Shown: in pieces, positions 3,983-61,716 of the stretch
How positions within the stretch are numbered: the first letter of the stretch is position 1
How the letters are laid out: each line of letters begins with the position of its first letter
Assembly (NCBI GenBank): GCA_037447655.1
Contig: JBBHKE010003007.1
Span: 1-64,000 of the forward strand
Reading direction: 5' to 3'
Origin: Zygnema cylindricum
Lineage: Eukaryota; Streptophyta; Zygnematophyceae; Zygnematales; Zygnemataceae
DNA length: 64,000 nucleotides
Notes under the pieces: model-generated
Told to the model about the DNA's origin: nothing
What the model saw: the letters and a program-made list of their open reading frames with translations, nothing else
Databases searched by the model: none
Made by a program: the position numbers and the translations under genes

Positions 3983-4485
3983 TCGTATTTTTTTGCATCA
4001 TTAGGTCAACATATCTAACAAAAAAAGAGAAAAGAATTCACTTCAAATTAGGCAAATTGACTAGATTCTTTAAGAAAGTAAACCTTGGTACATAAGTCAG
4101 ATAGCAGCAATTTAGTGAAAACAACTAGATGACTAGAAAGAAACCCTACTACAGCAACAATTTCTAACCTAACACTTTTCTACCAGAATCGCTGCATTTT
4201 GTTGATCAGTGATCTCTCCTCTCACCTCCAACACCCTCCCCCTCTCCCACCTCTCCTCTCCTCTCTCCTCTCTTCTCTTCTCTCTCCTCTCCATCAGCTT
4301 TTCGTGCCATGAAAACATCTCCTAGAAAATACTGTGAACTTTTCTGAGATAGAAGGACATTCCTATCGGGTATTTCTGCATGGAAAGCGTTTGAAGGAAG
4401 TCGGTCGTGACACGTGCGCTAGTTAGCATGGATATACAAAAACTGCTTAGAGTGCACTTGCGGACAAACTCCACTCTTATTTCAA

Positions 4486-21263: not shown

Positions 21264-23716
21264 TTACGATGTATGCTTAGCTTGGAATTTCTTCATGTGT
21301 GCTACTAACTTCTCAACTCCCTCCTTTGGCATAGCATTATAGATAGATGCACGCACTCCTCCAACAGAACGATGGCCCTTGAGTTGCACTAAACCCAAAG
21401 CTGTTGCCTCCTTGAGAAATTCAGCTTCCAACTCTGGACTACTCATGGTGAATGGCACATTCATGAGAGATCTAACTGGTAGTGCCACAGGACATGTGTA
21501 GAATCCATTACTTTCATCAATAGCCTGTGGCAAACAAAATTGGCAAGAGTCAGCAAAATACAAACTGAGAAAGGTAAACTTGGCATGTCTGCAACTCAGG
21601 GTACCAGCTGACAAATAAGTGTGACAGTCAACTGTATTTTAAAAAGCAAAAAAATCCAAAAATCAACATTACTCTTAACACTCCAAAACCACCCAAACAT
21701 TACCAAGTGCATAAATGAGGTCGCATCTCTTTCCACAGCAAAACCAAGCAAAACCATGAAACTTCTTCCAAACATGAGAAATAAAAAACTGCAGACTTTA
21801 CATAAGCATTCATGTTTTCAACGTCTTCAACCAGCAAATGGTTTTGCCTACATACCTGATACAAAAGGCCCGCTTTCTCCTCATTTCGCTTCGCAACAGC
21901 CTCTAAGCCTCCCTGCTTAAGCAGATCCGCAAAAACCAAACCGCACATGTAGATAGAGTAACACGGAGGTGTGTTGTAAAGGGATTCATTATCCGCGTGT
22001 GTCTTGTAATCAAACATCACAGGAGTTTGAGGCTGAGCATTTCCCATAAGGTCTTTGCGCACTATAACAATAGTCACACCTGAGGGACCGACGTTCTTTT
22101 GGGCTCCAGCATATATCAAACCAAACTTGCTGACATCAACTGGCTTTGAGCAAAAATTTGATGACATATCAGCCACTAAAAGTGCATCCCCCACATCAGG
22201 GTAATCCTTAAATTCCACTCCCTGAATTGTTTCGTTAGCACAAATATGAACATATCGGGCTCCAGGTGTCAGTTTCCACTCACTCTGTGGAGGTATATTG
22301 GTATACTTTCCTGGCTTCCCTGTTGCAGCAACATTTGATTTACAATACTTCTTAGCTTCTTTGGCCGCCTTGTCACCCCATGATCCTGTGACAATAAAAT
22401 CTGCCACGTCATCTGGAGTACAGAGATTCAAGGGAACAGCTGCAAACTCGGACGTGGCTCCACCTTGAAGGAACATGACCGCATAGTCCTCGGGAATATC
22501 AAGGAGCGTTCTAAGATCAGCTTCTGCCTTCCTAATAATGGAAAGAAACTCTTTACTCCGGTGACTCATCTCCAGCACACTAATTCCACTGCACATGCAA
22601 CAAAGTCGAACAGTTTCTATCAGCCCCCATGTATCACAAAATAAAACCAATGATAAACAAGATTTCGTCTATCCAAGCTGTGCACGGACACAAAAACAAA
22701 ATTTAAAAAATATTTTAGCTGACTGAGATGCTCCATTCTGTACTTTCAGTCTCTAAGTAGCTGCATTTAGGCATAGTTGGTAGGCAAAGAATGGCAAATC
22801 CATCGAATTTCAAACAACCTTTAGACTATTCAACCCTGTTTAAATTCATTTCCTTTTTAGCTAGAAATACATTCGAGTACACAACTTCATTTCCAGAATT
22901 GCCGTATCTGCTATCCAACCGAAAACAGATTTAGTAGACTCATTCCTGTTGCAGAAAAATAGCAGCAAGACGAAACTTGCAAAAAATTCTCACTACTCCA
23001 AAATACAAACATCATACTGTTACAAAAAAAGAGAAAACAAAAAAAAATTAACAAAATATATGACTGAGCATTTAAAGCAGCTAAGACCGTCTAAACGCAA
23101 GTTCGATCCACGTTCAAGTCTGAAAATCTGGTCAAAGAGACTATCAGCTTAAAAATCTGGATCAATACTTCTCAGCTTCAAAATCCAGCAAATTTCTGCA
23201 GCAAGGTTTCACACACATTTTTTTATCTGAATGAATGACCGACTGATAGTAAGCATTTTAAGGACAATGGAACTAGAAAAACAACAGAGACTTACCAAAA
23301 AGACACAATCACATGATGAAAAGGTTCACTTATACAACAATAAAAACAGCAAGAAGTTGTACGATAACATTGGATTCCTTACCACCCATGCCAGTCCACA
23401 AGCTCCTCCTGTGCTTGTTGAAGAACACTTAAGGGAAGAGTAGCCGGTCCAGCTGCAAAATTATACACCTTCTGGACAGTCCCCTTGTCTGCTTGAGTGG
23501 GAGATGTGACAGCTGGTGCTGATGCAGTTGCCTGGCAAAGAGGGCAAAAGAAGATTTTTTGGTCGCTGACTGCAGCGAAACTTTTTTGCTAACCGTCAGC
23601 TGTTCCACAAAAAAACTGGATCCATGTAATGAAGTCCTCTCGGAACTCTGACTGATGACGCTGTGACTTGTTGCAGAGAGACGGTTTAACATCTGTGTTC
23701 CTGTCATGGCAGCCAT
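21264..23716 (-). CDS. PSAT: Plastid phosphoserine aminotransferase, four exons
   Basis: Class V PLP aminotransferase converting 3-phosphohydroxypyruvate and glutamate to phosphoserine and 2-oxoglutarate, the second step of the phosphorylated serine pathway in plastids. Exons in transcription order: 23594-23716, 23383-23531, 21856-22588 and 21264-21524; total 1266 bases, 421 residues. Exon 1 encodes a Ser/Thr-rich transit peptide ([13 protein letters not shown] start). The mature part begins [12 protein letters not shown]. Then come [36 protein letters not shown], the PLP-lysine motif [13 protein letters not shown], and NVPFTM and [14 protein letters not shown] near the C-terminus. Length matches plant enzymes. 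Intron 1 is only 62 bp, chosen because it joins the transit peptide in frame; intron 2 is 794 bp with no other content seen. Start chosen because it yields the transit peptide. Confidence 0.93.
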
Positions 23717-40830: not shown

Positions 40831-41816
40831 TGTTGTTTTGAAAAGTCAGTTTCGTGCGTACTAGACAGTTTGTCCGTAACTACTAATTGGATTTAATATG
40901 GAGGTTTGAATAGATTCACGGATTGGGGGAGCGAACGGATTGATATAATTAAAGTGACGTAGAAGACTCATTGAGTGGTGTGAACAAGCTGTGACAAATG
41001 GACGGCGGATCGCGAAGCGATCCGATGTAAAATAAACGGAATAGGCGCCGCCGGTACGGCGGAGCTGCGACGCAGTTAAGTCAACGTAGCTGCGGCTATT
41101 TGTATGATCCGTACGGACAAGCGCAACCAGCGCAGCCAGCGCAGCTAGCGCAGCTGCGGATAATATGACTAGGATAGATCTCGAGTAATAGTGATTGTAC
41201 GGTAGTGGTAGCTTAGTAGTTGCTTAGTGGTAGCTTGGTTTCTGACATACGAAGAGTACGCTGTAAATATTCTGTACAACAGAGGTTTGTCTTTTTTACT
41301 AGTTAGGTTATTAGAGTAGATATAGTACGGCTGGTATGCCTCCGTACTCTGAGTATAACTTGCAGGACTTAGATTATTTTATGTATCGCAGTCAAGTTAA
41401 TCAAAGTAATGGCAGACTGTTTTCTGCATCTTTGTCCTGTTGGTGTGATCACTCTGATTGGTGCTTTCATGTGAAACTTTGTGGAGTTATTATATGATAT
41501 AGAATCTATATGTGTGTAAAGTTTCATGGTATTCCAGTATCTCTGTAAGATTCTGTGAACAATCAAAGTGGCTAGTTTGTGAAGCTGTCAGCTACTTTTG
41601 GGAAACTCTATAGCCTATATCTTCTAGATGCCTTGGTGGATTCGGCTGTAACTTTGGGATTTTATAGTGTATATGGTATACTGCATATTGGTGTAGTTTG
41701 AGACCATTTTTTTTTTAGTGTGGAGTAATCTGTGCTGTCTGAAACACAGCTGTTTTTGAGGTAGTCTGTGGGTGTTTTCGTGAGTAATCCATGGCTGAAA
41801 TAGGCTATGGACAACA
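40831..41816 (+). repeat. TR-GAG 5' LTR
   Basis: 986 bp. Contains a perfect 8-bp-stem hairpin CGGATCGC-GAA-GCGATCCG (41006-41024), a CCGCC/GGCGG inverted repeat, four 9-bp GCGCARCYR units (about 41118-41155), and the gag start codon at 41791, 26 bases before the LTR end. Confidence 0.92.
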
Positions 41817-43512
41817 GGTTATGGGCCCACACCCATGGCTACCTATATTTGATGGATTAAAATATCACTACTGGAAGTGTGCGCTTGAGAGCTACTTCGA
41901 GATGATGGAGCTAATGGATGTGGTGGACGGTACCTTGGCCGAAACATCAAATGACTGGAAAAGGAAAAATCATGAGTGTCTAAGGGTTATCAAGAACTCC
42001 TTGACTGGGGATTTGGTAATGTCATACCTAAGTTTTAAAAGGGCAACTGAATTATGGAAGAGCTTAGAATGTATGTATGCAAAGACGTCTTTATATCATT
42101 GGCTCAGTAGTGTTACCAAAATAGTTGAACACAAGTATGTAGGAGGTAGTATGGAGAAACACTGTATTGACTTGCAAGTACTATTTGCAGAAAATGATTT
42201 GGCAGGGGGAAACTTTACAGATGCTCAACAAGCTATCTTGTTAATGAGAAGTCTACCTAAAGAATATAAGAGTGCACTAGATCGATTGACTTTAATTGAT
42301 AAAAATGATTGGAGTATAACTGTAGCTAGACGAGTTATTCTAGATGAAGAGGCTAATAGAAAGGTTTTATCAGGTGAAAGGAATATGAAAGAATCTAAGT
42401 CTCAGTTTCAGAAATTTAAAGGTAATAGTGAGTTCGGAGATCGGCCAAAGAATTGTTTTTACTGTAATGATTTAGGACATACCTTCAGGGTATGTCCATC
42501 GTATAAAAGTGCATGTGTTACAGGGAATTTCAGAGATGGATGGGACAACACCAAAGTTCGAACCCCAACGAGAAAGGAATCAAGTGCTTTCGTGAGTGAG
42601 AGACAAGACTCGACAAATGACAAAAGGCATACACCATGTGTTGACGAATTTATGTATTTACCGACCTTCTGTGGTGTTTGGAATAGAGTAAAGGAGGAGG
42701 TGACAGAAAAGGATTTAATGTCTGTCCCTTTTCCCGACGACAGATTGGTGAGTAACAAAGAGTTACAGGAGGAAGAGTTGTTTGAAGTAAGAGAAATTAG
42801 AGGAAGTGAAGGTCACTTGGAAGTGGAAGCCGAAAAATACTTAAACATAAAGACTAATAAACTAAACCCAATTTTTCTAGAAGGACCGGGCGAAGATATG
42901 AAGAAAACTGGAATTAGGAATGAGGTGTATAATGTGGAAACTGGTGGAAGGAGTTATGTCACCGAAGATAGTGTGGTGAAGGACGAAAGAGAGAAGGACA
43001 CGATTTCTGTGACCTTATCAAGTGAAAAATCTGTGAGTGAAAATTGCTTACAAGAAAGTTTGTTAACTAAAGCAAGAGGAGTTGAAGGAGGAGATGGACA
43101 CTTAGAAGCAGAAACTAGAAGTAAGGTGGCCGTGAAAATTGGTGAACTAGGAGAAAAACAAAGAAAAACTGTTCAAAAAATTGGAGTGAGAAAAGAAGTT
43201 TGTGGGATTGAAAATTGTAATAGAAATGCAAAAGTTAAAAGAGTGCAGCTGAAAAGAAGAAGAATCAAAATTAAAATTTCTCAAATGAATGAAGTTGATG
43301 GAAGTAGCAAATCTATGGAGAAAAACATAAAGGTGAAACAGAAAACTAGTATTTGTGACTTTAAACGAGTAGAAAATTGTGATAGAAATGTAAACTTTCA
43401 AACAAGACAAAAGATCATGAAGAAAACAAAAAGAAGATGTAATATTCAAAGGATCAAGGGTAGAAGAAAACATGCTCAAAAAGTGATCAAGAAAAGAGAG
43501 CGGGAGAAATGA
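41791..43512 (+). CDS. TR-GAG gag protein, 573 residues
   Basis: Copia-type Gag, starting inside the LTR (MAEIGYGQQVMGPHPWLPIF). The gag domain runs about residues 17-190: FDGLKYHYWKCALESYFEMM, CLRVIKNSLTGDLVMSYL and LLMRSLPKEYKSALDRLT. A CX2CX4HX4C zinc knuckle, CFYCNDLGHTFRVC, lies near residue 221. The remaining roughly 340 residues are a Lys/Glu-rich extension with repeated blocks (RKEVCGIENCNRNAKV versus KRVENCDRNVNFQT) and a strongly basic end. There is no protease or polymerase sequence. The frame is open throughout, unlike most elements here, so this copy may still make protein. Codons 10-14 overlap the primer-binding site. Confidence 0.9.
   Translation: MAEIGYGQQVMGPHPWLPIFDGLKYHYWKCALESYFEMMELMDVVDGTLAETSNDWKRKNHECLRVIKNSLTGDLVMSYLSFKRATELWKSLECMYAKTSLYHWLSSVTKIVEHKYVGGSMEKHCIDLQVLFAENDLAGGNFTDAQQAILLMRSLPKEYKSALDRLTLIDKNDWSITVARRVILDEEANRKVLSGERNMKESKSQFQKFKGNSEFGDRPKNCFYCNDLGHTFRVCPSYKSACVTGNFRDGWDNTKVRTPTRKESSAFVSERQDSTNDKRHTPCVDEFMYLPTFCGVWNRVKEEVTEKDLMSVPFPDDRLVSNKELQEEELFEVREIRGSEGHLEVEAEKYLNIKTNKLNPIFLEGPGEDMKKTGIRNEVYNVETGGRSYVTEDSVVKDEREKDTISVTLSSEKSVSENCLQESLLTKARGVEGGDGHLEAETRSKVAVKIGELGEKQRKTVQKIGVRKEVCGIENCNRNAKVKRVQLKRRRIKIKISQMNEVDGSSKSMEKNIKVKQKTSICDFKRVENCDRNVNFQTRQKIMKKTKRRCNIQRIKGRRKHAQKVIKKREREK
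41817..41830 (+). other. Primer-binding site complementary to the tRNA-Met anticodon arm
   Basis: GGTTATGGGCCCAC follows the LTR directly and is complementary to the anticodon arm of initiator tRNA-Met rather than to its 3' end, as in Drosophila copia. It lies within the gag frame, read as Q-V-M-G-P. Confidence 0.75.
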
Positions 43513-44261
43513 TTTTCTGGAGGATATTTTTGAAGAATGTGAATTTAGAGAAATCTTAGTTTTGGAAAAACCTTTTTACAGACATGTCTTATAAAGACAT
43601 CTTTGTTTGACATTCTATTTGTTTTTGGTTGGACTTTAGATTTGTATTCTCCCTAATTGCGTTAGTTGAAAAGAAACAAAAAGATTTATTTATGTATTTT
43701 TGAAGACGAAGGAGGTGGTGGAAGCAATGACTTGTTCAGGAACGAAAATTTCGGGGGACATGGCAGAGCGCAGCGAAAGCGGTGGAGAATCATCAGAAGA
43801 AGTTCGCGTCGCGAACAGCGACGCAGCATAACGGCGCAACAAAATGAGTGGTGCTGTAAGACACTTACACGCTGATTATTTTATTCCAGGTACAGGCGAC
43901 TTAACATTCAGGGGTTATGCATTTATGGCGTAAGGGGAGCTATTACAGGACACCTTTTGCAAGAAGACAGCAAGCGACTGGGAATTGGCAGAGGGCAGCC
44001 GGAGCAATGGCGATGTCAACAAAGCACTGGTGATGTGGTGTTTTTGCTAAATTTATTGTATGATGAACAGTGGAGGCTGATACAGAATTTTGAATATTTA
44101 AATATATTTTTTTTCTTTTTACATTAGAGTGGAAACATTTGCGTACAGCATGGACTAATGAGTCTAAAGCTTTAGGGGAGTGTAGAATTTGAAAGCTTTA
44201 GTCTCAGTAGATGAGGCTATGAGGAGGAAGTTAAAGGTGAAAAAAAGCAGCAGTTAGGACT
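43513..44261 (+). other. Non-coding part of TR-GAG after gag
   Basis: No gene. At about 44175 there is TTTAGGGGAGTGTAGAATTTG, which looks like a second, internal purine tract and LTR-start motif resembling that of copia-A1. Confidence 0.6.
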
Positions 44262-44446
44262 ACGATGTCAAAACTAGCGCAGCGTAGCAGCATAGCAGTA
44301 CACGCTGCACTTTGTATTCATACTGCGCTGCGATGTCAAACTAGCGCAGCGTAGCAGCATAGCAGTACACGCTGCACTTTGTATTCATACTGCGCTGCGA
44401 TGTCAAACTAGCGCAGCGTAGCAACATAGCATTACACGCTGCATAT
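44262..44446 (+). repeat. 67-bp tandem repeat, about 2.6 copies
   Basis: The unit GCGCAGCGTAGCAGCATAGC...CATACTGCGCTGCGATGTCAA starts at 44277, 44344 and 44411, spaced exactly 67 bp. It is nearly identical between copies and forms GC-rich stem-loops with itself. Confidence 0.92.
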
Positions 44447-44481
44447 TTTTATGGGTGCACGAAACTAAATTTTCGGGGGAG

Positions 44482-45482
44482 TGTTGTTTTGAAAAGTCAG
44501 TTTCGTGCGTACTAGACAGTTTGCCCGTAACTACTAATTGGATTTAATATGGAGGTTTGAATAGATTCACGGATTGGGGGAGCGAACGGATTGATATAAT
44601 TAAAGTGACATAGAAGACTCATTAAGTGGTGTGAACAAGCTGTGACAAATGGACGGCGGATCGCGAAGCGATCCGATGTAAAATAAACGGAATAGGCGCC
44701 GCCGGTACGGCGGAGCTGCGACGCAGTTAAGTCAACGTAGCTGCGGCTATTTGTATGATCTGTACGGACAAGCGCAACCAGCGCAGCCAGCGCAGCCTGC
44801 GCAGCCAGCGCAGTTAGCGCAGTTGCGGATAATATGACTAGGATAGATCTCGAGTAATAATGATTGTACGGTAGTGGTAGCTTAGTAGTTGCTTAGTGGT
44901 AGCTTGGTTTCTAACATACGAAGAGTACGGTGTAAATATTCTGTACAACAGAGGTTTGTCCTTTTGACTAGTTAGGTTATTAGAGTAGATATAGTACGGC
45001 TGGTATGCCTCCGTACTCTGAGTATAACTTGCGGGACTTAGATTATTTTATGTATCGGAGTCAAGTTAATCAAAGTAATGGCAGACTGTGTTCTGCATCT
45101 TTGACCTGTTGGTGTGATCACTCTGATTGGTGCTTTCATGTGAAACTTTGTGGAGTTATTCTATAATATAGAATCTATATGTGTGTGAAGTTTCATGGTA
45201 TTCCAGTATATCTGTAAGATTCTGTGAACAGTCTAAGTGGCTAGTTTGTGAAGCTGTCAGCTACTTTTGGGAAACTCTGTAGCCTATATCTTCTAGATGC
45301 CTTGGTGGATTTGGCTTAACTTTGGGAGTTTATAGTGTATATGGTATACTGCATATTGGTGCAGTTTGAGACCATTTTGTTTAGTGTGGAGTAATCTGTG
45401 CTGTCTGAAACACAGCTGTTTTTGAGGTAGTCTGTGGGTGTTTCCGTGAGTAATCCATGGCTGAAATAGGCTAGGGACAACA
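44482..45482 (+). repeat. TR-GAG 3' LTR
   Basis: 1001 bp, begins after GGGGGAG. It differs from the 5' LTR by scattered substitutions and by having six instead of four GCGCAGCY units (about 44775-44828). The gag start codon copy is kept, but a T-to-G change makes a TAG shortly after. Confidence 0.92.
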
Positions 45483-45677
45483 CATTCTTGACCACCAATA
45501 CCGTTCCAGAACTAGACTTAACGTTTGCTTGCTACCGTAATGACCAAGCTTAGTGTGAATCTGCTCAATGAGAGAAAGACACTCGGTAGGCCGTGGAACG
45601 TGCCTATGGCTTCCGTCTGCCAACAACCGAACTAAAGATCCTTCGAGCCAAAGGTAACTTTTGGCCCTTTTTTTCAC
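45483..45677 (-). pseudogene. gypsy integrase zinc-binding domain, truncated
   Basis: YLWLEGSLVRLLADGSHRHV then LIEQIHTKLGHYGSKQTLSL and YWWSRM, the H-H part of the HHCC domain that begins gypsy integrases. The catalytic core would follow but is lost at the TR-GAG boundary. Confidence 0.8.
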
Positions 45678-46087
45678 TCTGTCTTCTTCATCAGAGGTAG
45701 TGACGGACCTGAAGGTCTGGGAGGATAAGAAAAGAATGAGAGGCCTATCACGCCAAGGATCTGTGGCGGGACAGGGGTTCGGAATAGACGCCAGATAGTA
45801 AGTAAGATAAGAATCCGCTGATTTGGCAGGAACCTTGTCATCGTTGAAATCCTGTTAAACTCCGTTATCCGTCGTTCGAGGCAAAGGATTTCGAGAAATT
45901 TCATCCGCATTTAGACTAAGCAGACCCGGTTGGTGGATTATTTCAACATCATATTTTTGTAGAATTAAATCCCATCGGGCTAGTTTCCCGGAAAGCTTAT
46001 CGTTAGTCATCAGCTAATGCAAGGGCTGATGGTCAGTTAGAAGTGTGAAAGGTTTACGTACAAATAATGGTTAAAGTGAACGACTCC

Positions 46088-46360
46088 CTAAACCGCGGCT
46101 AGACACTCTCCTTTGTAGCTACTATAATTTGATTCAGCCAGCTTATTGCTTCTACTCGCGTAAGCAACTACGTATTTCTCTCCGCTCAACTCTCTTTGTG
46201 TCAAGATGGTAGCGATTTCGGGTTTTCCAAAATCTGTTTGGAGACAAAAGGAAAGTTTGTGATTGGGAGGACAAAGAATTGGAGCACTCGATAAGGCCAT
46301 TTGTAATTTTGAAAATGCGGAAATCTGATCGGTACCCCATATAAACGCCACATTCTTCTT
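46088..46360 (-). pseudogene. gypsy RNase H (partial)
   Basis: FIWGTDQISAFSKLQMALSS, LQTDFGKPEIATILTQ and YVVAYASRSNKLAESNYSSY then KGECLAAV, the standard gypsy RNase H start (first Asp in QTDFG; Y-S/K-GE motif). The downstream half to about 45680 is decayed. Confidence 0.85.
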
Positions 46361-46371
46361 GAGAAGATCGT

Positions 46372-47526
46372 TTAAAGGAGATGCGATTGTACTGAAATTA
46401 AGTTTGAACCTGCGATAATAATTAGCAAGCCCGAGAAACGCTCGGAGCTTGTGAGGTCCGTGGGAGCGGGCAATTTACTGATTGCATCTACCTTTGCTTC
46501 GAGAGGATTGATCCCCTCAGCCGAGATAAAATAGCCAAGGTAAGGCACTCCTTCGGATCCAAAGGTGCATTTTGCGGGATGACACTTTAATCGAACCTTT
46601 TTTAATTCAGTCAATACCCATTCGATATGAGCCGTGTGCTCTTCGATAGCAGCGGAGGCAATGATGAGATCATCGATGTAACACCTAGCAAACTTACAAC
46701 CTCCGAGGACTGAGTCCATGACTTTTTGAAATACCGTGGGAGCATTTTTCAGTCCGAACGGCATTACGGCCCATTCCCATCGGTCGTCGCTACCCCAAAA
46801 GGCAATTTTATGCCGGTCTTTTTCCTCTATATCAATTTGATTGAATCCTTGACGGAGGTTAAGGATACTTAAATACTCCGCCCAGCATACGTGATCAAAT
46901 ATTTCTTCGGCAAGAGGCATGGGATGACGATCTTGAACCGTTCTAGCATTTAGTTCACGATAATCACCACACATTCGACGTTCACTAAAATAACCCTCAG
47001 AATCCTTTTTCAGAGGCATGACAATGGGAGCTGCAAATGTGGAGTCTGACCGATAGATTAGGTCAGCTTCCTCTAGTTCAGCACATCGATTGTCTACCAT
47101 TTCCCATTCAGTTTCTGACAGACGATGTTTGGGTTTAAATATCGGGCGGTCATCTTCGAGATCTATCGACATCTTATAAACGGTGTGACAACCCAAATCA
47201 TTCATAGAAAAAGAAAAGGCATCGACATTTCGTAAAACTACCTCATTTAGTAACTCTTGTTCGGCCTTTGTTAGATTGGTGCCGAATTTCCATTTAAGAG
47301 CATCAGGATTTTCGGTTGTCATAGCTTCCATGGCTTGTGCAAAGGCCAACTGCTCATATGCGATAAGCGTTTCACCTAACTCGTAAGCTACCGGTGTCTG
47401 TTTAAGGCAATTAACCGAATGATTCCAACTGCGTGTTGGAAAAGTAGCACTCCAATGAGGAGGGGGTAGAATATGCATGGGACTTGTAGACTGGCCAGCC
47501 ATGTATGTGGGAATAGACCAGGACAT
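46372..47526 (-). pseudogene. gypsy reverse transcriptase
   Basis: A 384-residue open segment. RT motifs: FKPKHRLSETEWEMVDNRCA, STFAAPIVMPLKKD, RMCGDYRELNARTVQDRHPM, LRQGFNQIDIEEKDRHKIAF, MPFGLKNAPTVFQKVMDSVL, the catalytic CYIDDLIIAS, HPAKCTFG and VPYLGYFISAEG. The usual LDLxSG(Y/F) is LNLRQGF here, so the first catalytic Asp appears lost. Confidence 0.93.
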
Positions 47527-47639
47527 ATGGCTAGGGTTAAGGAAATCCTAGATAGAGATCTCCAAGACTGGTGGAATTGGAGAGGGAAAGAGGAAAAAAT
47601 GAAATGTGGTCCCTTGGAGAGTGGGACGGAAAGATTTTC

Positions 47640-48690
47640 TTAGTGATGCATCCCCCCCCCCAGCTGGTTGAGACGCGTATGCCTAAGAATGGCGACGCTG
47701 CAAACCGAAGACCTAAAACAAAAGACAAAGACTGAGGGTCCATGACACGACCTAATAATGTACATCTTTGACGTTCTCTAAGACCTAGAGCGGATGTAGT
47801 GCCAGGAATGAAATGCATGAGGTGTTCTCCTTCCATAGCGGTAGGCTTTTTGAGCTCACCAGTATGAATATTGCTGAGCATGCCAAGACTGTCATTAGAG
47901 AATGCATGTGAATGTGGGTAAAAAACAAAGGTAGGAAGCACCTTGAGAGGTTGACCCAGGACATTGACACTGAAATTAGGGGGACAGTCCTTTTGAATGC
48001 AAGGCTGCACCTTATAGAAAGGAAGAAGGGCACCATGAATAATTGAAGGAGGAGGACGAACTTACAAGTTGGCCTTCCGGAGTCTACCAATATCGATGAG
48101 GTTCATCCATTTGGAGCGAACCCGGTGTGCTAGTGAACCATGGCGAGCCGCGTCAATAATAAGAGGCGGACAAATTAATTGTTCGATCCGTTGATAATCA
48201 GCAAAGACTGTAGGTCTTGGATCATTATAGACTGCGACATTTTCCAAGATATACCCCAAAGGATGATCTAAAGTTTGTAGAAAATTTAGGATGCGAACCA
48301 ATTCAAAAAAAAAAAATGGTGCGGGGAACGGCTAATCCGAGACCTTTCCCGGCCCGAGACATTCCTTGGCACTCCCATGCGCCAAGATCTAGATTGATTG
48401 GACCAATCTCCAGTAAGTGATGGTTGCCCACAATGCGAATGTCTTTTGGGAGGGCAGTATGCATATGCTCATATGCAGATTTTGGTAACAAATGCGGGTA
48501 TTGGGAATGCAACAGATTATAATGATGTAATTGTGCTTTCCGTGCTAACGGATCAATCTCAACCGAATAATATGATCGGATTAAAAATCCATTCCTCAAT
48601 CATGCAAAGAGGGAAGTACCTATTCCAGCGAAGAGGTCCAAAATCACCAATCCATTTGGATGAGGTTTCAATTTGACCAGTTTCCAATTA
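47640..48690 (-). pseudogene. Cytosine-5 DNA methyltransferase domain inside the gypsy element
   Basis: C5-methyltransferase motifs in order on the minus strand. Motif I is VILDLFAGIGTSLFA (about 48650, SAM binding); motif II is YYSVEIDPLARKA. Motif IV is LGAWECQGMSRAGKG, with the catalytic Cys but Glu where Pro is usual. Motif VI is GYILENVAVY (ENV) and motif VIII is ARHGSLAHRVRSKW. The target-recognition segment carries VLPTFVFYPHSHAF; motif IX/X is FIPGTTSALG and LLGRVMDPQSL. Family role: transfer of methyl from SAM to cytosine C5 in DNA. Broken by a TGA directly after motif I, a frame change in a T12 run near 48305, and another change near 48685. It lies between protease and RT, in the same orientation, so it belongs to the element rather than to the host. 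Confidence 0.9.
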
Positions 48691-48970
48691 ATGGGAAGAA
48701 ACCTAGAAGAGTCTGTAGGGACTTGGAAAGTGGAATTGACAAGGTTTGGTTATAGATTCGATCAAATTCCCTCATATCTATAAGAAAACGTGGGTCACTG
48801 CAAATTTCCGGTAAATAAGAACTATCGGGCAGAATTTCTTCTGCTCAGAATCAATGAAATATTTCGGCCCCCACTGAATTCCTTGAAAATGCAGGTATGA
48901 ATGTGGCCGAATTTGCCATAACAAGCATGGGCTTCCTAGCGGAAATTAGCGGAATGCATATTTTGCGTTC

Positions 48971-49330
48971 CTAGAAGTTAGTGGGCCTATAAGAAAATGT
49001 CTGATCATGCATGTTAACTCCACCCCCTACACGAAATATAACGTCATGTCCCACTAGGCATTCATAGTTAATACATTTAGTGACCAGAACGTGAACCGAG
49101 ATCTCAGCAAAGTCTGTGGCCGTTCCGTTCTGGAACCTGAAAACGAGCGGTTCTTTAGTGATTCTTTTGACTAGCTTGGTTGTACCCGCTGATGTTAATA
49201 AGCAAGTAGAAGTTGTCTGAAGCTTGTCCGGAGTTAGACCAAGCTTGAGTGCAAAGCTAGAGCCCAATATCACCGGCTTCGCACCCGTATCCATGATAGG
49301 CAGGGAACGGGCTATACCATTCATCAACAA
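48971..49330 (-). pseudogene. gypsy aspartic protease
   Basis: Retroviral-type protease with active site LPIMDTGAKPVILG (DTG-A form), followed by ECLVGHDVIFRVGGGVNMHD, the flap and second-half region. An open segment of about 119 residues. Confidence 0.85.
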
Positions 49331-49416
49331 TGCACCCTTTCGTTATCCAAAAAATTGATGTGAGGATTGAGGGAATTTCGCTCCTCTATGGAAATAGGCT
49401 GAATAGCAGCTAGATT

Positions 49417-51311
49417 TTAGTGCAGCTGAAGTGCTTGTAAAGCGGCAGCTGCAGCTGAGCTATCGGACGCAAAGGAGATACGGGAGATTTTTGGTGAATC
49501 TGAAATCATTGTGGATAGAATGCACAAGCGTTCTTTTACGCGGTGTGCCTCGTGTATAGTTCGATCCACTATGTTGAGAGCTTCAACTGCGATGGCTGAA
49601 GCGTTTTTGGGCAAGGGAGGGGAACGCTCTTTAGTGAATGACAAAGGAATGCGTGTGTTAGGAGTTTTACCGTCACGGTTGTGATCACTTGAACCTTTGT
49701 CAAACGTAGCCTCTCGTTGTTGGATGGTGGAATCTCGGAAAATTCGACCTGCCAACGTGGGCATGTCTACAACGGTGCGAGCCATGCTTGTAAATTGTGG
49801 CTTCATTTGAGTCATAAAGGTTGCGAATTGTTCCTTCATCATAGCCGCCATTTGCTCTTGCATTTCCAAACGCTCTCTCCCTCTCTTCGGGATACCTTAG
49901 GTGGAGTGGTGTCCTTCTCCAGTTCTTTAACCGGTTGAACCGGTTTGGCAGATAAAGCAAGAATGCCACCAATCTTAATTTCGTTCTGATAGGAAAATTC
50001 CCGGTTCTTTATATGACAATGTTGGACATAATGTCCGGTTTGCTTGCAATGTGTACAGGTAGCAGTTTTGTTTGGACACATTCGGGCATCATGCCCCATC
50101 TTCCCACATCGAAAACATAATTGGTTTCCGAGAGCAACGGGTGGGGTTCCCATGGCCGCGACTTTAGGAGGTCGGATGTTAAAACGAGGATTATTCCATG
50201 GTGGAACAATCAGTTCTTTCGGGACTGCTTTAGGACGGTCATGGGCTTCCCACCAACAATTTTGCATTTCGTATTCCACGGCATGCTGGCGACTTGGTCG
50301 AAAGTGAACTTTAAGTCGTACGTTTGAGTCAGATGACTATGAATAAACTTCTTATACTGACTTGGAAACTGTCCAACAAATTTCTAGACAGCTTCAGCAT
50401 CCGACATTAAGTGCGGCAATGCTTCACAAAGAGCTTCCATACGAGCACGCATGGCAAGGGTTGTCTTTCCTGACTTCCGTTCAAAGTTCATTAACTCACG
50501 AACTTGGTCAGGGTTTTGCATACGCTATTCCGTTTGCAACATTTCAAACATGACAGAGAGCAGATCCAATATAGGGATTGTCATCGTTGGTCGTACTGGG
50601 ATTCCACCACGTGCGGCTATAGCAAAACTGTTGCGGTATTTCCGCAACTGCTGCCGTAATAACATCGTCGTTGAGATCGAGGACTTCCGGGATAGCTGGT
50701 TGGTAAGGAATTTATGGTTGTCCTATAATAGCAGGACTCCTAGCAAAAGGTGAAGAAAACTCGGTCATCGCAAGTACGGAATCATACTTGCGGGAATAAA
50801 GAGTAAGGGCTGAACCACGAAAATAACGGCCTAAAAGAGAGAAAGCGACCCGTAGGTCAAACCGATCTTGGTACCGAAATGCAAGATCACGCATTTCGGT
50901 ATCGAATAGCATTCGAAAATGCGATTAAGTCATGGTGTCCTTCATTCCTGAAAAACAAAAATGAAAGCGACCCCTTCCCTCGGATGTGGAAGCCATTTCC
51001 AATAATGGAATGGTTGGGGACAATAATGAATTTGTAATTTGTGGAAACCAAAAAGATAATGAATTGGAATCCGACCCGTCAAGGGAATTGCGGTTAGATT
51101 CTTCCTCGAAAAATGTGGAAGAGACTGATGATATGGAAGATACTGAGGTAAGGGAAGATCGAACCGAAGGGGTAATTTGACCTGAGATATTTGGAAAATG
51201 ATGGTCCAAAAGACTAGGTAAATTTGATGGTCCTGATTCTGTGGGCCTAAACGGGGCCGATGATCGGGTGGTTCCGAAAGGATAATCGAGATTATCCCAA
51301 TCGGTGGGCAT
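49417..51311 (-). pseudogene. gypsy gag region
   Basis: Starts MPTDWDNLDYPFGTT with a Ser-rich stretch. It continues across frames through RYQDRFDLRVAFSLLGRYF and a capsid-like part. Two CCHC zinc knuckles, CFRCGKMGHDARMC and CTHCKQTGHYVQHC, lie near 50040-50110. A Met/Gln-rich coiled region MEMQEQMAAMMKEQF follows. At least two frameshifts. Confidence 0.85.
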
Positions 51312-52719
51312 AAAAATGATAAAACCAAATGATAATCGGATAACAAAATCGATCTATACGAGGTGCTTCAAATGCCACACCACACCACTCACTTGTCCAA
51401 TCAGCCAATCAATCTCTAACAGGGCCTCGATGGCCAGATCTACCAGGAAGCCGTATTACCAAAACCTTCTACCCTGCAAACAAGGGGACAAGGCCGAAGG
51501 GCCAGATCTATAAAGGCAAATAGCTTACTACCCAAGCACTCACAAGTGCAGATCTAAAGCGGCACAATCCACAATGGAGCTAACCAATGCCTCCAACGGC
51601 AAGATCTATGGAAGAAATTCCACACCAGCAAAGCAAACTCAGCCAAGGCCACTCAGGGTCCGATAGCAAGCATGGAAAGCTAGATAAATGCAATGCCCAA
51701 TACAAGTGGATTAACACTAATCCACTCCAAACACGATCCCTCTAAACGATCAACCGACTACCTTAGCACGCACCTGCACCCGCAAGGCATCGTGATACTT
51801 ACATAACACACTTAACAATCTGGTGATTGCCAAGGGTGAACTGCGGTTGTTCGCTACAACCGAAATTTTACAGAGCTCCCAAGAACGGATCCGCTCCACT
51901 AACTCCACTCTTTGGTGAAGTATGTCACAAGGTGAGCACCTGATGCCCAAGATATAAACAAAAACAAGGAGGAAACAAATACCAAATACTTAAGTTAGTG
52001 TTGTATACAGTTGACAAAAATTGGCCAATAAGATAAAAACGACAACCAACAAGCAAATGGTAAATATAAAAGTAAAGCTAGTTATAGATTTTTGTAGAAA
52101 TGTATCTATAAATATATATTTTTGATTTTTTTAATATATATTATTTTAATTTTATTTTAACCAAAGAAAACAGAAATTGGAATAAAACAAAGTCAATTGA
52201 AAATAACAATGGAGAATGAGACGACAATTTTCAAGTGCAGGAATACTAAGCCGATGGATGACCACTAAGCCCCACGGTCTATTTATATTCCTTGCAAGAG
52301 TTATCTTTATCGAGAATAATCTGAATTTATACTTAAATAAAATGAATCAAAACATAAACAACCGCGAAAGATAAATAAAAACTGAAAATGACAATATGCC
52401 CAACACTTATGAGGTTTGAGATAACCAAACTCAAAAGATGCGCAAAAGCCAAATAGAAATAAATACACTATCACAAGAAATAAACACAACAAATCAATAA
52501 TCCTAACATGCAACTTCCACACTAATTAAAATTCAGCCACAGCCGGGGAAAGAAGTTCGTGTTATGAGATCGCGGTCGAAATCCATTGAAAGGACAAGAA
52601 AAGTGAAGGGAAACCGTGTAGGTCTTGGCGAAGCCGTATAGATTAATATGTAAGGCTTTACAAGATATTGATAATGTAATAGAAAACTAGATGCTTCACG
52701 CAAAAGCAGAAAATCGCCT
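51312..52719 (-). other. Probable gypsy leader and 5' LTR, not delimited
   Basis: Upstream of the gypsy gag on the minus strand. No gene supported, no partner LTR is present for comparison (the 3' end of the element is lost), and no convincing primer-binding site was found. Part may belong to copia-D. Confidence 0.3.
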
Positions 52720-53647
52720 CTATGCTGTCTGGACAATTTTACAAATAAAAAGATGGCTGCAGAAAATCCTCAACAATGAAAACAAATAATTCCTGCACTT
52801 GAAAATTGTGTGCAGGTATTTTTTTTCGTTGTTGATGGGAAAGCTGGTCACGTCCTCCTCAAGTTTGTTGAAGAGATCAGTTGGTCGTCCACCTGATTGA
52901 GAAGGAACCCGACCTCTATGCCTGCCTGAGCGAAAATTTCCTATGGCCTTGGCTCTCTTATAAGCATTACAGAGTCTGAAAACATACAATTTTTCATGAC
53001 AATAGTAGCATGTCAAAGGTGACCTTTTAGGGCCACTTCCTCTGCCACTACCAATCTTAGAATCTGAAAATTGGTTAGATAGTGACTGAACAGACCTCCT
53101 ACTACCTCATTGTGAAATTTGGTGAGCTTCTTCGCTCAAAATATGTCGAACAGCTAATGTGATGTTCCATAGACGTTGTGGAAGAGCCCTAAGCCTATTC
53201 ATGGCGTCTTTATATTTATCGGGTAAAGTTCTCATTAACAACGTAGCCAATTGAGGGGGGGGGGAGTCCCCATCTGCACTAGTACATTGTAAAAACAACC
53301 TTTTTATAGCATGACAACGATCTGACATACTATCTCCATTATATCCAAATTCAAAGAACTATGTTGTTATATTAGTTAAAACTCTGACATTTAGCTGAAT
53401 ATGCATAGCATGTACACTAAACCAGACTTCAGAAGCCTTTTTCATCTCAAGGTAAAACATTACCAACTCTTTTGTCATAGACTGCTTGAAGACGTTGAGG
53501 CAATTGTGATTCATTTTTCTAGAATCCGGTGATGTCTCATCGGCACTTCTATCCACAGTCGATGACAAGTCCCTCTCTTAAAAATATGAGCTCATCACAT
53601 CTTCCCAATACAAGTAGTCTGATCCATCAAAAATAGGCAACTTGGAC

Positions 53648-57334: not shown

Positions 57335-58124
57335 TTAACTAAGTTTAGTGACAGTTGTGGCAATGTTAAGGCGGGTGGCATGCATAGCGTACATAAGAGC
57401 CCCGACCATCGAGCGGTAAGTTGCATGGGGAGAGGGGGAGAGAAGGGAGTCAGTGGAAGGGAGGAGAGGGGCATTAGCATACAAAGAAGTGGAAAAGGAG
57501 GAGCGGTCTGCCAGGCCAAAGCGTTCCAAAAGATTAGAGATAAAGGTCTCTTGAGAGAGAGAGAGGGTGGGAGTCGAGCGATTACAAGAAACTTGTATGC
57601 CCAAATAATAAGCGAGCTCGCCTAGACCGACCATGTCAAAATTGGTCTGAAGGAGAGATTTGACAGTGGAGATTTCATAGAGAGAAGGACCAACAAGAAG
57701 GAGATCGTCAACAAAGATGGCAAAAATGATCAATGAGGTGCCAGAGCCACGAGAGTAAATGCTAAAATCGGCATCAATTCGGGTAAATCCTTCTTTCCGC
57801 ATAATGGCATCTATGGTATAGTTCCAGAACCCGGGGGCATTTCTTTAATCCATAGATTGTTTTAATGAGATGGCAAACCAGATGTTTAGATCCAAGGGAA
57901 ATATAGCCTTTAGGCTGATGCATGTAAATGTCCTCGTATAAGATCCCATTTAAGAAGGCATTTTTAACATCCATCTGATGAACATGGAAATCATGTTCAA
58001 CAGCTAAAGCAAGTAAAGTGCGGATAGATGTCAACTGGGCAACAAGAGCAAAGGTTTCAGTGAAATCTATACCTTTGATTTGGGAAAAGCCCTTTGCCAC
58101 CAAGTGAGCTTTGTATTTGTCCAC
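57335..58124 (-). pseudogene. copia-E reverse transcriptase
   Basis: VDKYKAHLVAKGFSQIKGID, HVHQMDVKNAFLNGILYEDI, IKTIYGLKKCPRVLE, a frame change near 57800, then IFVDDLLLVG (FVDD variant), GELAYYLGIQVSCN and YRSMVGALMYAMHATRLN. Confidence 0.9.
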
Positions 58125-58691
58125 GGATCCATCCGCTTTTTGTTTTACACAGAAGACCCATTTCGAACCGATTGCCTTTCTTCCAAGGGGAAGGGGAACA
58201 AGATTCCATGTTTTGTCGGAAAGTAAGGCATTGAATTCAGCATCAACGGCAGTTTTCCAAAGGGAGGCATCAGGTCGTTTTAGGGCAGCCTTGAGAGAGA
58301 GAGGGGCTGAAATAAGAGAGGCAGAGGCCCCAGCCGAGTAAGCGTAAGCTAGAGAGGCGTGGCCTATGGAAGTAATAAGCCGAGAGGGGGGAACTCTAGA
58401 GCGTGCGGGGTTTCGACGAGGTAAAGGAGAGGGGTCAGGAAGAAGGGAAGGCTCAGGATCGGGAAGTGAAGGCTCAAGAGGAGCAAAAGGCCCAAGAAGA
58501 GGTGAGTGGGAAAAAATTGTGGGAGAAAGATTGTCAAAAAGAGGATCACCTTGGGAAAGAGGGGGAGAGGAGGAATTATCTTCAGAATTTGTGACAGGAT
58601 GAAGAGGAAGGGCAACTGAGTGGCTGGCAGGAGTGATGGGAGCAGCCGGGAAAACAAAGGGGGTAGGAGAAGATGGAGGAGGAGGGAGACT

Positions 58692-60140
58692 TCAAGATGA
58701 TGAGGGGGAAAATATAGGAGGATTAAGAGGAGAGGGGTGGGAAGGGGTAAGGTAGGTGAATTCAGATGTGAAGAGATTGAAGGGGAAGGTTTGGGGGAAG
58801 AGGGTCATAGAGGGTGAGGGAAGGAAAGTCGGATAATGGGGGAAGAGGGGAAGGGAAGGGCATACGGAAAAGGTTTGGAGAAGTGGCGTTTCGTTGAAAC
58901 TTACTTCTCTTGTGGTGATGACGCGATGCTGAGAAGGACTCCAGATGCAGTACGCTTTGGAATTTGGAGCGTACCCAACGAAAATGCCACGAAATGCGCG
59001 AGCGCCCAATTTGCCGTCCGAGTGGAGGAGGTCTTTGTACCACGCTTCACAACCAAAGATTTTAAGGTGGCGTATATCTGGTTTGACAGAGGACCATGCT
59101 TCCATTGGAGTAGATTTTGGTAAAGCGTTAGTGGGACAAAGATTGCGTAAGTAATTTGCGCAAACGACAGCCTCTGCCCAAAATTCATAAGGCAAATTCG
59201 CAAAGTACAGCATAGAGCGTGACATGTCATGTAATGTTCGGTTGTACCTTTCTGCAATGCCGTTTTGTTGTGGCGTCCGAGGCGCCGTTAAATGACGTGA
59301 GATTCCATGTTGCATGAGAAATTCAGAAAATTGGTTGGACAAAAATTCGCCACCGTTGTCACTACGCAAGACCTTGATGCGTTTGTTGTGAAAATTTTCT
59401 GCCAACGCTTTAAATTCCCGAAATCGGGCAAAAGCGTCAGATTTATGACAGATTGGATACACGTGTGAAAAACGAGTGGCGTGGTCAATGAAAGTGACAA
59501 AATAAAGGGATCCACTGTAACTACGCGTGCGCATGGGTCCACACACGTCCGTATGTACAAGTGCAAGTGGTTCAGTGATGACCGTAGTGCTAGTGGGAAA
59601 TGAGTGACGCGGCATTTTTCCTTGCACGCAACCGTGACAAAAATCCAAAGATTTGTTAGAAAATGAATTTAGTCCAGTTACAAGATTTGGCAAAGTACTC
59701 AAACTTTCGCTATTTAAATGCCCATATCTTAAATGCCAAAGTGGAAAACTTTCGACGCTAACACTTAAAGCAAATATCTTTGGCGTACTATACGATTGTA
59801 GGACGTACATAGAATCTCTTGCTACTCCAAAACCTACAGTATTGTTGTCTTTTCTATCATAAAAAGTTACTCTATCATTATTAAATTCAGCTTTTAAGCC
59901 GTCAGAAGTGGCGACTTTCACAGAAAATAAATTCCTAGCTAGACTAGGAACAAAGAGTACGTTCTGAATGTGAATAGACACATTAGGGACGTTGACGTTG
60001 CCAGAATGAGTAGCCAACAGAATGCGGTCGTCGCCTAAACGAATCTGCATAGGAGATGATAGAGAAGAAAGGTGAGTGAACCAATCAGATCGTGGTGAAA
60101 GGTGGTGACTTGCACCACTATCTATTAGCCAATCGACGAG
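58692..60140 (-). pseudogene. copia-E protease tail and integrase
   Basis: Just upstream of the long frame, WLIDSGASHHLSP (about 60100-60140) is the protease active site. The 452-residue frame has FVPSLARNLFSVKVA, WHLRYGHLNSESL with CHGCVQGK (integrase zinc domain), and the D-D-E core in LVHTDVCGPM, VLRSDNGGEFLSNQF and NGIAERYNRTL. KIFGCEAWYKD and FRGIFVGYAPNSKAYCIW follow. A Pro/Ser-rich linker leads to the RT. Best-preserved integrase in the window. Confidence 0.92.
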
Positions 60141-61308
60141 GTTTGAGATAGAAAAGCATACCCTTGTGGAAATTGAGTATCCGGAGTGACATAATTTGGG
60201 ATATGATGGGCAACATTGCCATATCCAAATTCTGGTGAGGGAGGGAGGACAAAAGGGGAAGCTACTGGAGTGGGAAAATTAGAGTGAAAATGTGGGGAGA
60301 AAGCGGTCGACCAATGGAGGTTAACGGGGTTTGAAGAGGCATAGTGCGCTGCGGCGTTAGAAGATTGTGGAAAGGATGGAGAAGGGGAATAATGGTGAGG
60401 ATAAGGAAAATTTGGAGGGAAAGAAATGTGTGGAGGGAGTGGGGGGGTGGGAAGAACTGGTGGGTTGACATGGGCAGCTTTGGCATTCCCTCCAAGTTTA
60501 GGGGGATTGGAAGCCTCGGCTGCTTTCTGCCTCGCCAATTTTTGACAGTCTTCAACGGAATGTCCTTTTGTTTTGCAGTAGGCGCAAAACAAACGCTGCA
60601 CCCCCTTAGAGTTAGTCTTCTGATTTTTGGCAATAAAGGCATTTGCATTAGAGAGATTTGGAGCAGAAAAAGAGAGAAGTTTTGTCTCTTCATGCAAAAG
60701 TTTGCTACAAAGTGAGTGAAAAGGAATGGATTGGTCTAGATTGTCAAACGAGGAAATGAAATGGGAAAAGGTTTCAGGGAGTCCTCCCAAAAGGGTTGAA
60801 GAGAGGTCCTCGTCGGAAAGATGCACGCCTATCATGGTGCATTTTCCGGCCGACAATTCGACGGTGCTAATCCAATCCTGCATAGATTCCGACGGCTTTT
60901 TCATGGAGTTAAAAAACGCTCGTTTTTGAATTCGGCGAGCGGCCCATCTGGTTTGAATGTAAGCTGCTTGAAGACGACTCCAAGCCTCGGCGGAAGAGGA
61001 GGCGCCGCGAATAAGACGAGTGCGCTGGTAGTAAGTGACATCACTAGACGAGCGTGCGCATCCTCGTCCTTTTGTTTCCATGTAGCTATTGCCAACTCTT
61101 TGGTAGCTTTTTCTGCTGGTGTATCAGTAGAGGAAAAGATAGGAGGTTTTGAAATTCCTATAAAATGGTCCCAAATCTTCTCGTGTTTGAAAAAATGCAT
61201 GGCTGAAAATGACCAATCATAAAAGTTTTGGCCATCAAACTTCTGGATACTATTAGAAGTGGCATGGCTAGGCCCATAACCTATTGGAGGTGGATTGGCG
61301 GAAGCCAT
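60125..61308 (-). pseudogene. copia-E gag, one frameshift
   Basis: Starts at 61308 inside the LTR (MASANPPPIGYGPSHATSNS). The gag domain is FDGQNFYDWSFSAMHFFKHE, then after a frameshift near 61010 AWSRLQAAYIQTRWAARRIQ, LLGGLPETFSHFISSFDNLD and the zinc knuckle CAYCKTKGHSVEDC. It ends in a long Pro-rich tail. Codons 9-12 overlap the primer-binding site. Confidence 0.88.
61271..61281 (-). other. copia-E primer-binding site (anticodon-arm type)
   Basis: GGTTATGGGCC directly follows the LTR end and matches the TR-GAG site, but is read in a different frame (G-Y-G-P). Confidence 0.7.
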
Positions 61309-61716
61309 GAAATTGTACACAAGAGAAAGATCAATGCATTGAAGAGAGGAATTGATTTGTATTTGGGATAATTTCATTAAGTGAGGAGAGTCACTTATAT
61401 ACAAAATATATAATGCTAATTACTGTGGAGTCTAAGGGCTCTACGGTGCGTTGTAACTAAGGAATCCTAGTCTAGATTCTAACAAATGTATGTAAGACAA
61501 AAGACTGGACCGTCGGCCAAAAGACTGGACCGACGGTCAAAGGACTTCTACGTAAAGGACTAGACCAACGAAAAAGTACAATTGACTGGACCGACGTATG
61601 GAAGTACGGATAGGACCAAAAGTGAGACGTCCGGATATGCCGGTCAACAAGACTTGACCGACGTAAGAAAACGTACGGACAAGACAAAAATATCCTACGC
61701 TAAATGTCCCGTAACA
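61282..61716 (-). repeat. copia-E 5' LTR
   Basis: 435 bp; starts TGTTACGGGACATTTAGCG and ends CCTCCAATA. Contains the gag start codon 26 bases before its end. Confidence 0.85.

Follow-up and report, generated by a model that had tools for sequence, protein, structure and literature searches.

The window analysed here, a stretch of 64,000 nucleotides, contains a broken copy of a gypsy retrotransposon with a DNMT3-like cytosine-5 (C5) DNA methyltransferase between protease and reverse transcriptase (RT). Judged from its copies in the assembly, the family is large and in part recently active, with some intact frames and near-identical repeats. Complete copies have the split repeat layout A-coding-B-A-B and 4-bp target duplications. 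With moderate confidence, we explain these elements as a DNMT3-bearing gypsy family that would use LTR-type reverse transcription, have its cDNA circle opened inside the LTR by the integrase, and methylate itself. Retrotransposons are usually the victims of DNA methylation; here the enzyme is encoded by an abundant retrotransposon family, part of which is very young.

The copy in the window

The copy (45483-52816, minus strand) is a truncated and disabled gypsy element that shares 89.6% identity over 7.4 kb with a longer copy on contig C829. Its domains lie on one strand in the order gag, protease, C5-methyltransferase, RT, RNase H and start of the integrase (Table 1). A sequence-only reading of the window had described C5-methyltransferase motifs I, II, IV, VI, VIII and IX/X in order, flanked in the same orientation by gag-protease and by RT-RNase H-integrase. 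All of these motifs were found on the minus strand, across two frames, and both flanks are present, but the integrase is valid for the zinc-binding part only, because the copy stops at 45483 inside that gene. The integrase core and PHD finger of the gypsy copy were not found within the window. The domain order is that of a methyltransferase-bearing gypsy element, as had been proposed, but the copy itself is a dead, truncated pseudogene, as its methyltransferase is broken by in-frame stops at two sites (48600-48602 and 48062-48064) and changes frame at an A-run near 48305-48316.

The 5′ end of the copy (52816) lies inside the first repeat, where homology begins at about position 803 of the C829 repeat A, and the 3′ end (45483) abuts another LTR element. 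This copia-type neighbor is 4.65 kb long and has a gag frame of 573 aa; no other plus-strand frame of at least 100 aa was listed, and the element is probably non-autonomous.

Table 1. Positions in the window of the gypsy copy's parts and of the element at which it is cut off.
Feature	Position	Strand	Evidence or remark
Repeat A1 (5′ repeat) remnant	52242..52816	-	from near predicted RNA start to repeat end; 90-91% to repeat A of C829/C1915
21-nt A segment, exact complement of predicted primer-binding site (self-primer)	52789..52809	-	same 21 nt in C829/C1915
Predicted self-priming primer-binding site, end of A1	52224..52244	-	rule from five other copies
gag region, broken; CCHC zinc knuckles in 49842-50336	49420..51353	-	zf-CCHC 5.2e-6
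Aspartic protease (DTGA)	48974..49342	-	Asp_protease_2 3.2e-4, under that family's own cut-off
DNMT3-like C5-methyltransferase; two stops, one frame change	about 47684..48749	-	motifs and profile matches
Methyltransferase motif I, DLFAGIG	48618..48638	-	
Methyltransferase motif IV, ECQ, catalytic Cys kept	48366..48374	-	
Methyltransferase motif VI, ENV	48236..48244	-	
Reverse transcriptase	46375..47547	-	RVT_1 1.5e-25
RNase H, shifted frame	46091..46474	-	RT_RNaseH_2 1.2e-18
Integrase, H2C2 zinc-binding part only	45483..45854	-	Integrase_H2C2 1.1e-7
Copia-type LTR element cutting off gypsy copy; one gag frame	40831..45482	+	Retrotran_gag_2 2.5e-16; LTRs 95% identical

The family in the genome

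The assembly (352.8 Mb, 2689 contigs) was searched with a 98-residue piece of the window enzyme, and the resulting counts are lower bounds. Collecting genomic copies with the window translation, as the sequence-only reading had suggested, gave 1016 candidates, of which at least 150 methyltransferase stretches, counting that of the window, were scored. A search with RT found at least 106 places, including the window. In 53 of the 105 other RT copies a listed methyltransferase lies 0.9-1.6 kb upstream, as counted against one methyltransferase listing and part of another. Twenty of the other 52 were chosen for inspection, and 18 carry the methyltransferase, some in part within the 1500 bases taken. 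The enzyme, whole or partial, is present just upstream in 71 of 73 checked RT copies (the remaining 32 of the 105 lie outside the check). A lack of the methyltransferase in other gypsy copies of this family, named beforehand as evidence against the proposal, was not what we found.

Two subfamilies were recognized. Subfamily A includes the window copy; in near-full-length matches, the enzymes of subfamily B share about 35-39% identity with that of the window. The order methyltransferase, RT, RNase H, integrase recurs in a subfamily B frame on contig C1374, which has a protease frame upstream of it, and the same four domains follow one another in this way on C544. The order protease-RT-RNase H-integrase is that of Ty3/gypsy elements, and rve matches in the C1344 and C1374 frames (9.7e-12 and 5e-12) identify an integrase of the DDE type, also as in Ty3/gypsy. 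Methyltransferase and RT distances are correlated (0.97 over 23 copies, reached in 0 of 999 permutations; 0.87 within subfamily A and 0.94 within B), and mean distances between the subfamilies are 0.62 for the methyltransferase and 0.60 for RT. Such parallel distances fit one old methyltransferase acquisition followed by co-inheritance. In one copy the 931-nt repeats are 100% identical and one frame spans 2395 residues, and A repeats are 99.5-99.6% identical in two other copies. A scan of viral contigs found no relative.

Repeats, termini and a proposed replication cycle

Repeat layout was determined from ten fetched regions of 17-20 kb. Four of these (C1344, C829, C1915 and C449) contain complete copies with the layout A1-coding-B1-A2-B2, as opposed to the plain LTR-coding-LTR arrangement of Ty3/gypsy elements. 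The outermost ends of complete copies are TGTC and GACA. Short target duplications, as in Ty3/gypsy, are present: the 4-bp sequences TTGG, AAGG and CCCT are exact in three of the four copies, and 3 of 4 bases match in the fourth.

Several sequence features recur at defined places within these repeats. At the end of A1, a stretch of 15-21 nt is the exact complement of an internal segment of A in all five copies examined (0 of 300 shuffles of each A). This self-primer sequence varies between lineages. Both partners are retained in the window copy (21 nt, exact), where homology starts close to the A segment. In C829, the self-primer segment forms part of a strong hairpin (z -4.8, 0 of 200 shuffles; 4201-4260, minus strand, of the fetched region) that recalls the folded 5′ end of self-priming elements. 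A poly-G run of 9-12 G directly precedes B1 in 5 of 5 subfamily A copies and in C1374; in the one copy folded, a hairpin before the run was no better than shuffles. The sequence GACAGCTGTC occurs at the B1/A2 junction in all six regions with such a junction and in none of the four without. The junction itself is an invariant palindrome, GACA-GC-TGTC, present once per junction-bearing region. The A2/B2 joint varies by copy, and in five copies between 0 and 3 of the poly-G bases are retained there; in C1407, 226 nt of A are missing at this joint, which has a 9-nt microhomology.

From these features we infer a replication cycle as follows. The RNA would start inside A1 and prime itself on the site just past A1, and the poly-G tract before B would prime the plus strand. 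Self-primer and poly-G would then sit at the minus- and plus-strand start sites of an LTR element, which would make B-A the true LTR. Ordinary reverse transcription would restore B-A at both ends, and the cDNA ends may be joined to give the A/B joint; end-joined cDNA would leave variable joints such as those between A2 and B2. The DDE integrase would open the circle at the palindrome between B and A and insert it. A circle of B-A-coding-B-A opened once at this palindrome would yield A-coding-B-A-B with GC lost at the outer ends, as observed.

The methyltransferase may methylate the double-stranded cDNA of its own element, either before insertion or at that step, thereby masking this DNA or setting its chromatin state. 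In the intact Pol frame, a PHD finger (PF00628, 3.4e-10) follows the integrase core (rve, 9.7e-12), and it may guide insertion by reading histone tails. Seven of the 10 fetched regions contain its cysteine-histidine pattern, and all seven belong to subfamily A; the PHD match in the subfamily B frame is weak (0.0034).

A first alternative is that this is just another KnitGypsy-Dnmt3, with the same family and layout and nothing mechanistically new, in which repeats and replication are DIRS-like and the circle is closed by an internal complementary region. KnitGypsy-Dnmt3, as described in the text available of de Mendoza et al. (2018; PMC5890265), is indeed a Klebsormidium gypsy element with DIRS-type repeats whose Pol contains a Dnmt3, and the layout found here is the same. 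We nevertheless consider this unlikely. The integrase found here belongs to the DDE (rve) type, no tyrosine recombinase was matched by Pfam in the scanned C1344 and C1374 frames, 4-bp target duplications are present, the poly-G tract and self-primer are located where an LTR element requires them, and a PHD finger is not mentioned in the main text of PMC5890265.

If the circle-opening cycle is correct, the anatomy offers a testable answer to the presence of DIRS-like repeats in a gypsy element, and links such repeats to a possible reason for carrying methyltransferases. A wider reading, which we advance tentatively and rate just short of an even proposition, is that a methyltransferase-bearing gypsy lineage shifted its integrase site into mid-LTR, keeping LTR-style reverse transcription while the DDE integrase opens an end-joined cDNA circle at an inherited palindrome. 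Retroelements that expose double-stranded circular nuclear cDNA, namely DIRS types and these, would then repeatedly carry methyltransferases, and DNMT3 and the PHD finger in Pol would form a writer-reader pair acting on circle and target. Among the titles and abstract openings covered, we found no description of a DDE-integrase element that inserts from a circle opened inside its LTR.

The methyltransferase

The window enzyme, read through with X at the stops and frame change, matches PF00145 at 5.7e-5 (23.1 bits, cut-off 22), and matches solved structures of DNMT3C, 3A and 3B at 4e-7 to 3e-5. Scored singly, none of its four pieces reaches PF00145. Natural relatives from the two subfamilies match at 9.7e-13 and 3.7e-14 and clear the cut-off (48.7, 53.3 and 50.1 bits). 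These searches agree with the C5-methyltransferase assignment made from motifs by the sequence-only reading. A profile built from one natural relative of subfamily A and four of subfamily B matched DNMT3A at 1.4e-19, HhaI at 3.7e-8, DRM2 at 1.9e-6 and DNMT2 at 3.5e-6, all of these being solved structures; by comparison with that set, the enzyme is DNMT3-like, nearer to DNMT3 than to other classes. In plant DRM enzymes, motifs VI-X precede I-V. Here the motifs run from I to X, without such rearrangement, which is hinted at for DRM in the portion available of PMC5890265. Neither an ADD nor a PWWP domain was reported in the scanned Pol frames.

Motif IV reads ECQ in the window copy with the catalytic Cys kept, as had been noted, but this is no peculiarity of one copy. 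Among copies picked by similarity, and thus non-randomly, 19 of the 20 subfamily A copies that are readable at this site have ECQ and one has DCQ (eight more fetched A copies are unreadable there), and all 16 readable subfamily B copies have PCQ. Subfamily A therefore has Glu for Pro in the PC dipeptide of C5 enzymes, and subfamily B has the dipeptide. To our knowledge, this dipeptide is near-universal in C5 methyltransferases and active enzymes nearly always have Pro at this position, so the fixed Glu is a natural change at a near-invariant site. Between subfamily A lineages, methyltransferase dN is 0.12-0.24, whereas dS is above 2.2 or saturated, which indicates that the ECQ enzyme has long been kept by selection. 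On these alignments, we read ECQ as a fixed, long-constrained trait of one subfamily and not as a product of decay. In the recent trio C829/C1915/C2577 the ratio is higher for the methyltransferase (0.33-0.46) than for RT (0.155-0.293), which counts against our explanation, but it is 0.45-0.65 for the integrase and 0.41-1.04 for the protease.

CpG is undepleted in the elements (observed/expected 0.85-1.07; 0.80 for the whole window), and lasting CG self-methylation is therefore not visible. Both this and the replacement of PCQ by ECQ in subfamily A (19 of 20 readable copies) would suit an enzyme that is a passenger, that acts on RNA or protein, or that ECQ has turned into a catalytically weak, regulatory DNMT. 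We think such a role improbable, given that the catalytic Cys, ENV, the motif VIII arginines and motif I are conserved, that the methyltransferase has been under long-term constraint and that PCQ is kept in 16 of 16 subfamily B copies. Methylation of the element's cDNA remains the role we favor.

Incomplete copies and other origins

Not all fetched regions have the complete layout. C2577, C783 and C544 are A-coding-B only, without matching flanks, and the circle-opening model accounts for them only with later recombination. Only the 3′ block is present in C1407, C1374 shows rearrangement, and neither A nor B was matched in C82. The gypsy element that hosts the C1344 insertion has a single pair of long direct repeats and lacks a methyltransferase in the interval from protease to RT; as a methyltransferase-free control for plain LTRs it is a single case, and concerns long repeats only.

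The three single A-coding-B forms without matching flanks, together with the rearranged appearance of C1374 and C1407, could suggest that the split repeats arose when ordinary LTR copies recombined, in tandem or ectopically, and not through a replication cycle. This origin is already disfavored and we regard it as very unlikely: four complete copies share one layout, three of them combine repeats that are 99.5-100% identical with exact duplications at their outermost ends, and B1/A2 junctions do not vary, in contrast to A2/B2 joints. The idea that a methyltransferase fragment from a host or a bacterium came to lie beside a retroelement by chance, for which only the weakness of single pieces of the window copy could be cited, has practically no standing and was rejected because one uninterrupted frame encodes gag, protease, methyltransferase, RT, integrase and PHD finger and because of the copy counts (71 of 73 checked copies).

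Host markers and other features of the window

The sequence-only reading had taken the element as a hint of the host lineage. Marker genes from the assembly point the same way, to a streptophyte. A host methyltransferase fragment of 100 residues matches chains 4fsx/4ft2/4ft4 at 104.5 bits, versus 51.5 for the next group, DNMT1 chains; the former are named methyltransferase 1 in the match table and we take them to be maize chromomethylase. A host light-harvesting gene matches CP24-type chains best (294-303 bits), followed by multi-repeat LHCI chains (at most 200) and single LHCs (121). CP24 is a streptophyte protein. Clusters of many light-harvesting (PF00504) matches are present on contigs C519, C2590, C1116, C610 and C1077. 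The RuBisCO large subunit had no match in the assembly.

Elsewhere in the window, two 246-bp repeats (6970-7522, plus strand; 98.8% identical) each contain a tRNA-Thr(GGT) prediction. This anticodon is more typical of organelles, and the repeats may be organelle-derived DNA or a tRNA-like sequence. Also present is a copia element (57338-61419, minus strand) with gag, integrase and RT domains across several frames. The sole clearly host-like match among ten window frames scanned is a Class-V aminotransferase frame (21703-22668, minus strand; PF00266, 4.8e-36).

Comparison with known systems

That retrotransposon-borne methyltransferases have a precedent in charophytes, as the sequence-only reading stated, is correct (PMC5890265, as far as its text was available). 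The closest known element is KnitGypsy-Dnmt3 of Klebsormidium nitens, a name that turned up in a single paper among those listed in a literature search. Compared by description in the same source, the two share a DNMT3-type enzyme without rearranged motifs in the Pol of a gypsy element, purifying selection, A-coding-B-A-B repeats and a streptophyte host. By that comparison, the family described here would differ in the fixed ECQ of one subfamily, the PHD finger, predicted self-priming, integrase-type duplications and the circle-opening model. The Klebsormidium enzyme produced no methylation in yeast, a result that its authors call inconclusive (PMC5890265, text available). A search of titles and abstract openings, with subscription journals mostly outside it, found no description of a PHD finger in a gypsy integrase. 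As far as these sources and our alignments reach, the PHD finger after the integrase, the fixed ECQ, the predicted self-priming and the repeat anatomy appear to be new here.

SymbioDIRS-Dnmt3 of Symbiodinium also has DNMT3 in Pol and A-coding-B-A-B repeats, but it has a tyrosine recombinase in place of a DDE integrase, and the acquisition was independent (PMC5890265, text available). Unlike DIRS elements, which have such a recombinase and no target duplication, the C1344 and C1374 frames lack this domain and duplications are present. Tf1/sushi and plant Tcn1 gypsy elements share predicted self-priming and the lack of a tRNA-type site; the Tcn1 elements have chromodomains, and neither a methyltransferase nor a PHD finger is mentioned in the main text of PMC6317226. 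The catalytic domains of animal DNMT3A/B/C are the best solved relatives and have the same motif order, but they are distant only (profile E 1.4e-19, mainly mid-domain), and their ADD and PWWP domains have no reported counterpart in the Pol frames scanned here. A parallel for the proposed integration step is provided by foamy virus, whose integrase, according to the available text of PMC1180852, cuts a palindrome at the 2-LTR circle junction. As in our model, a single cut at the palindrome yields two processed ends, with the loss of two bases upon insertion; the foamy virus palindrome, however, is the LTR-LTR joint, whereas the palindrome here would lie inside the inferred LTR and be inherited.
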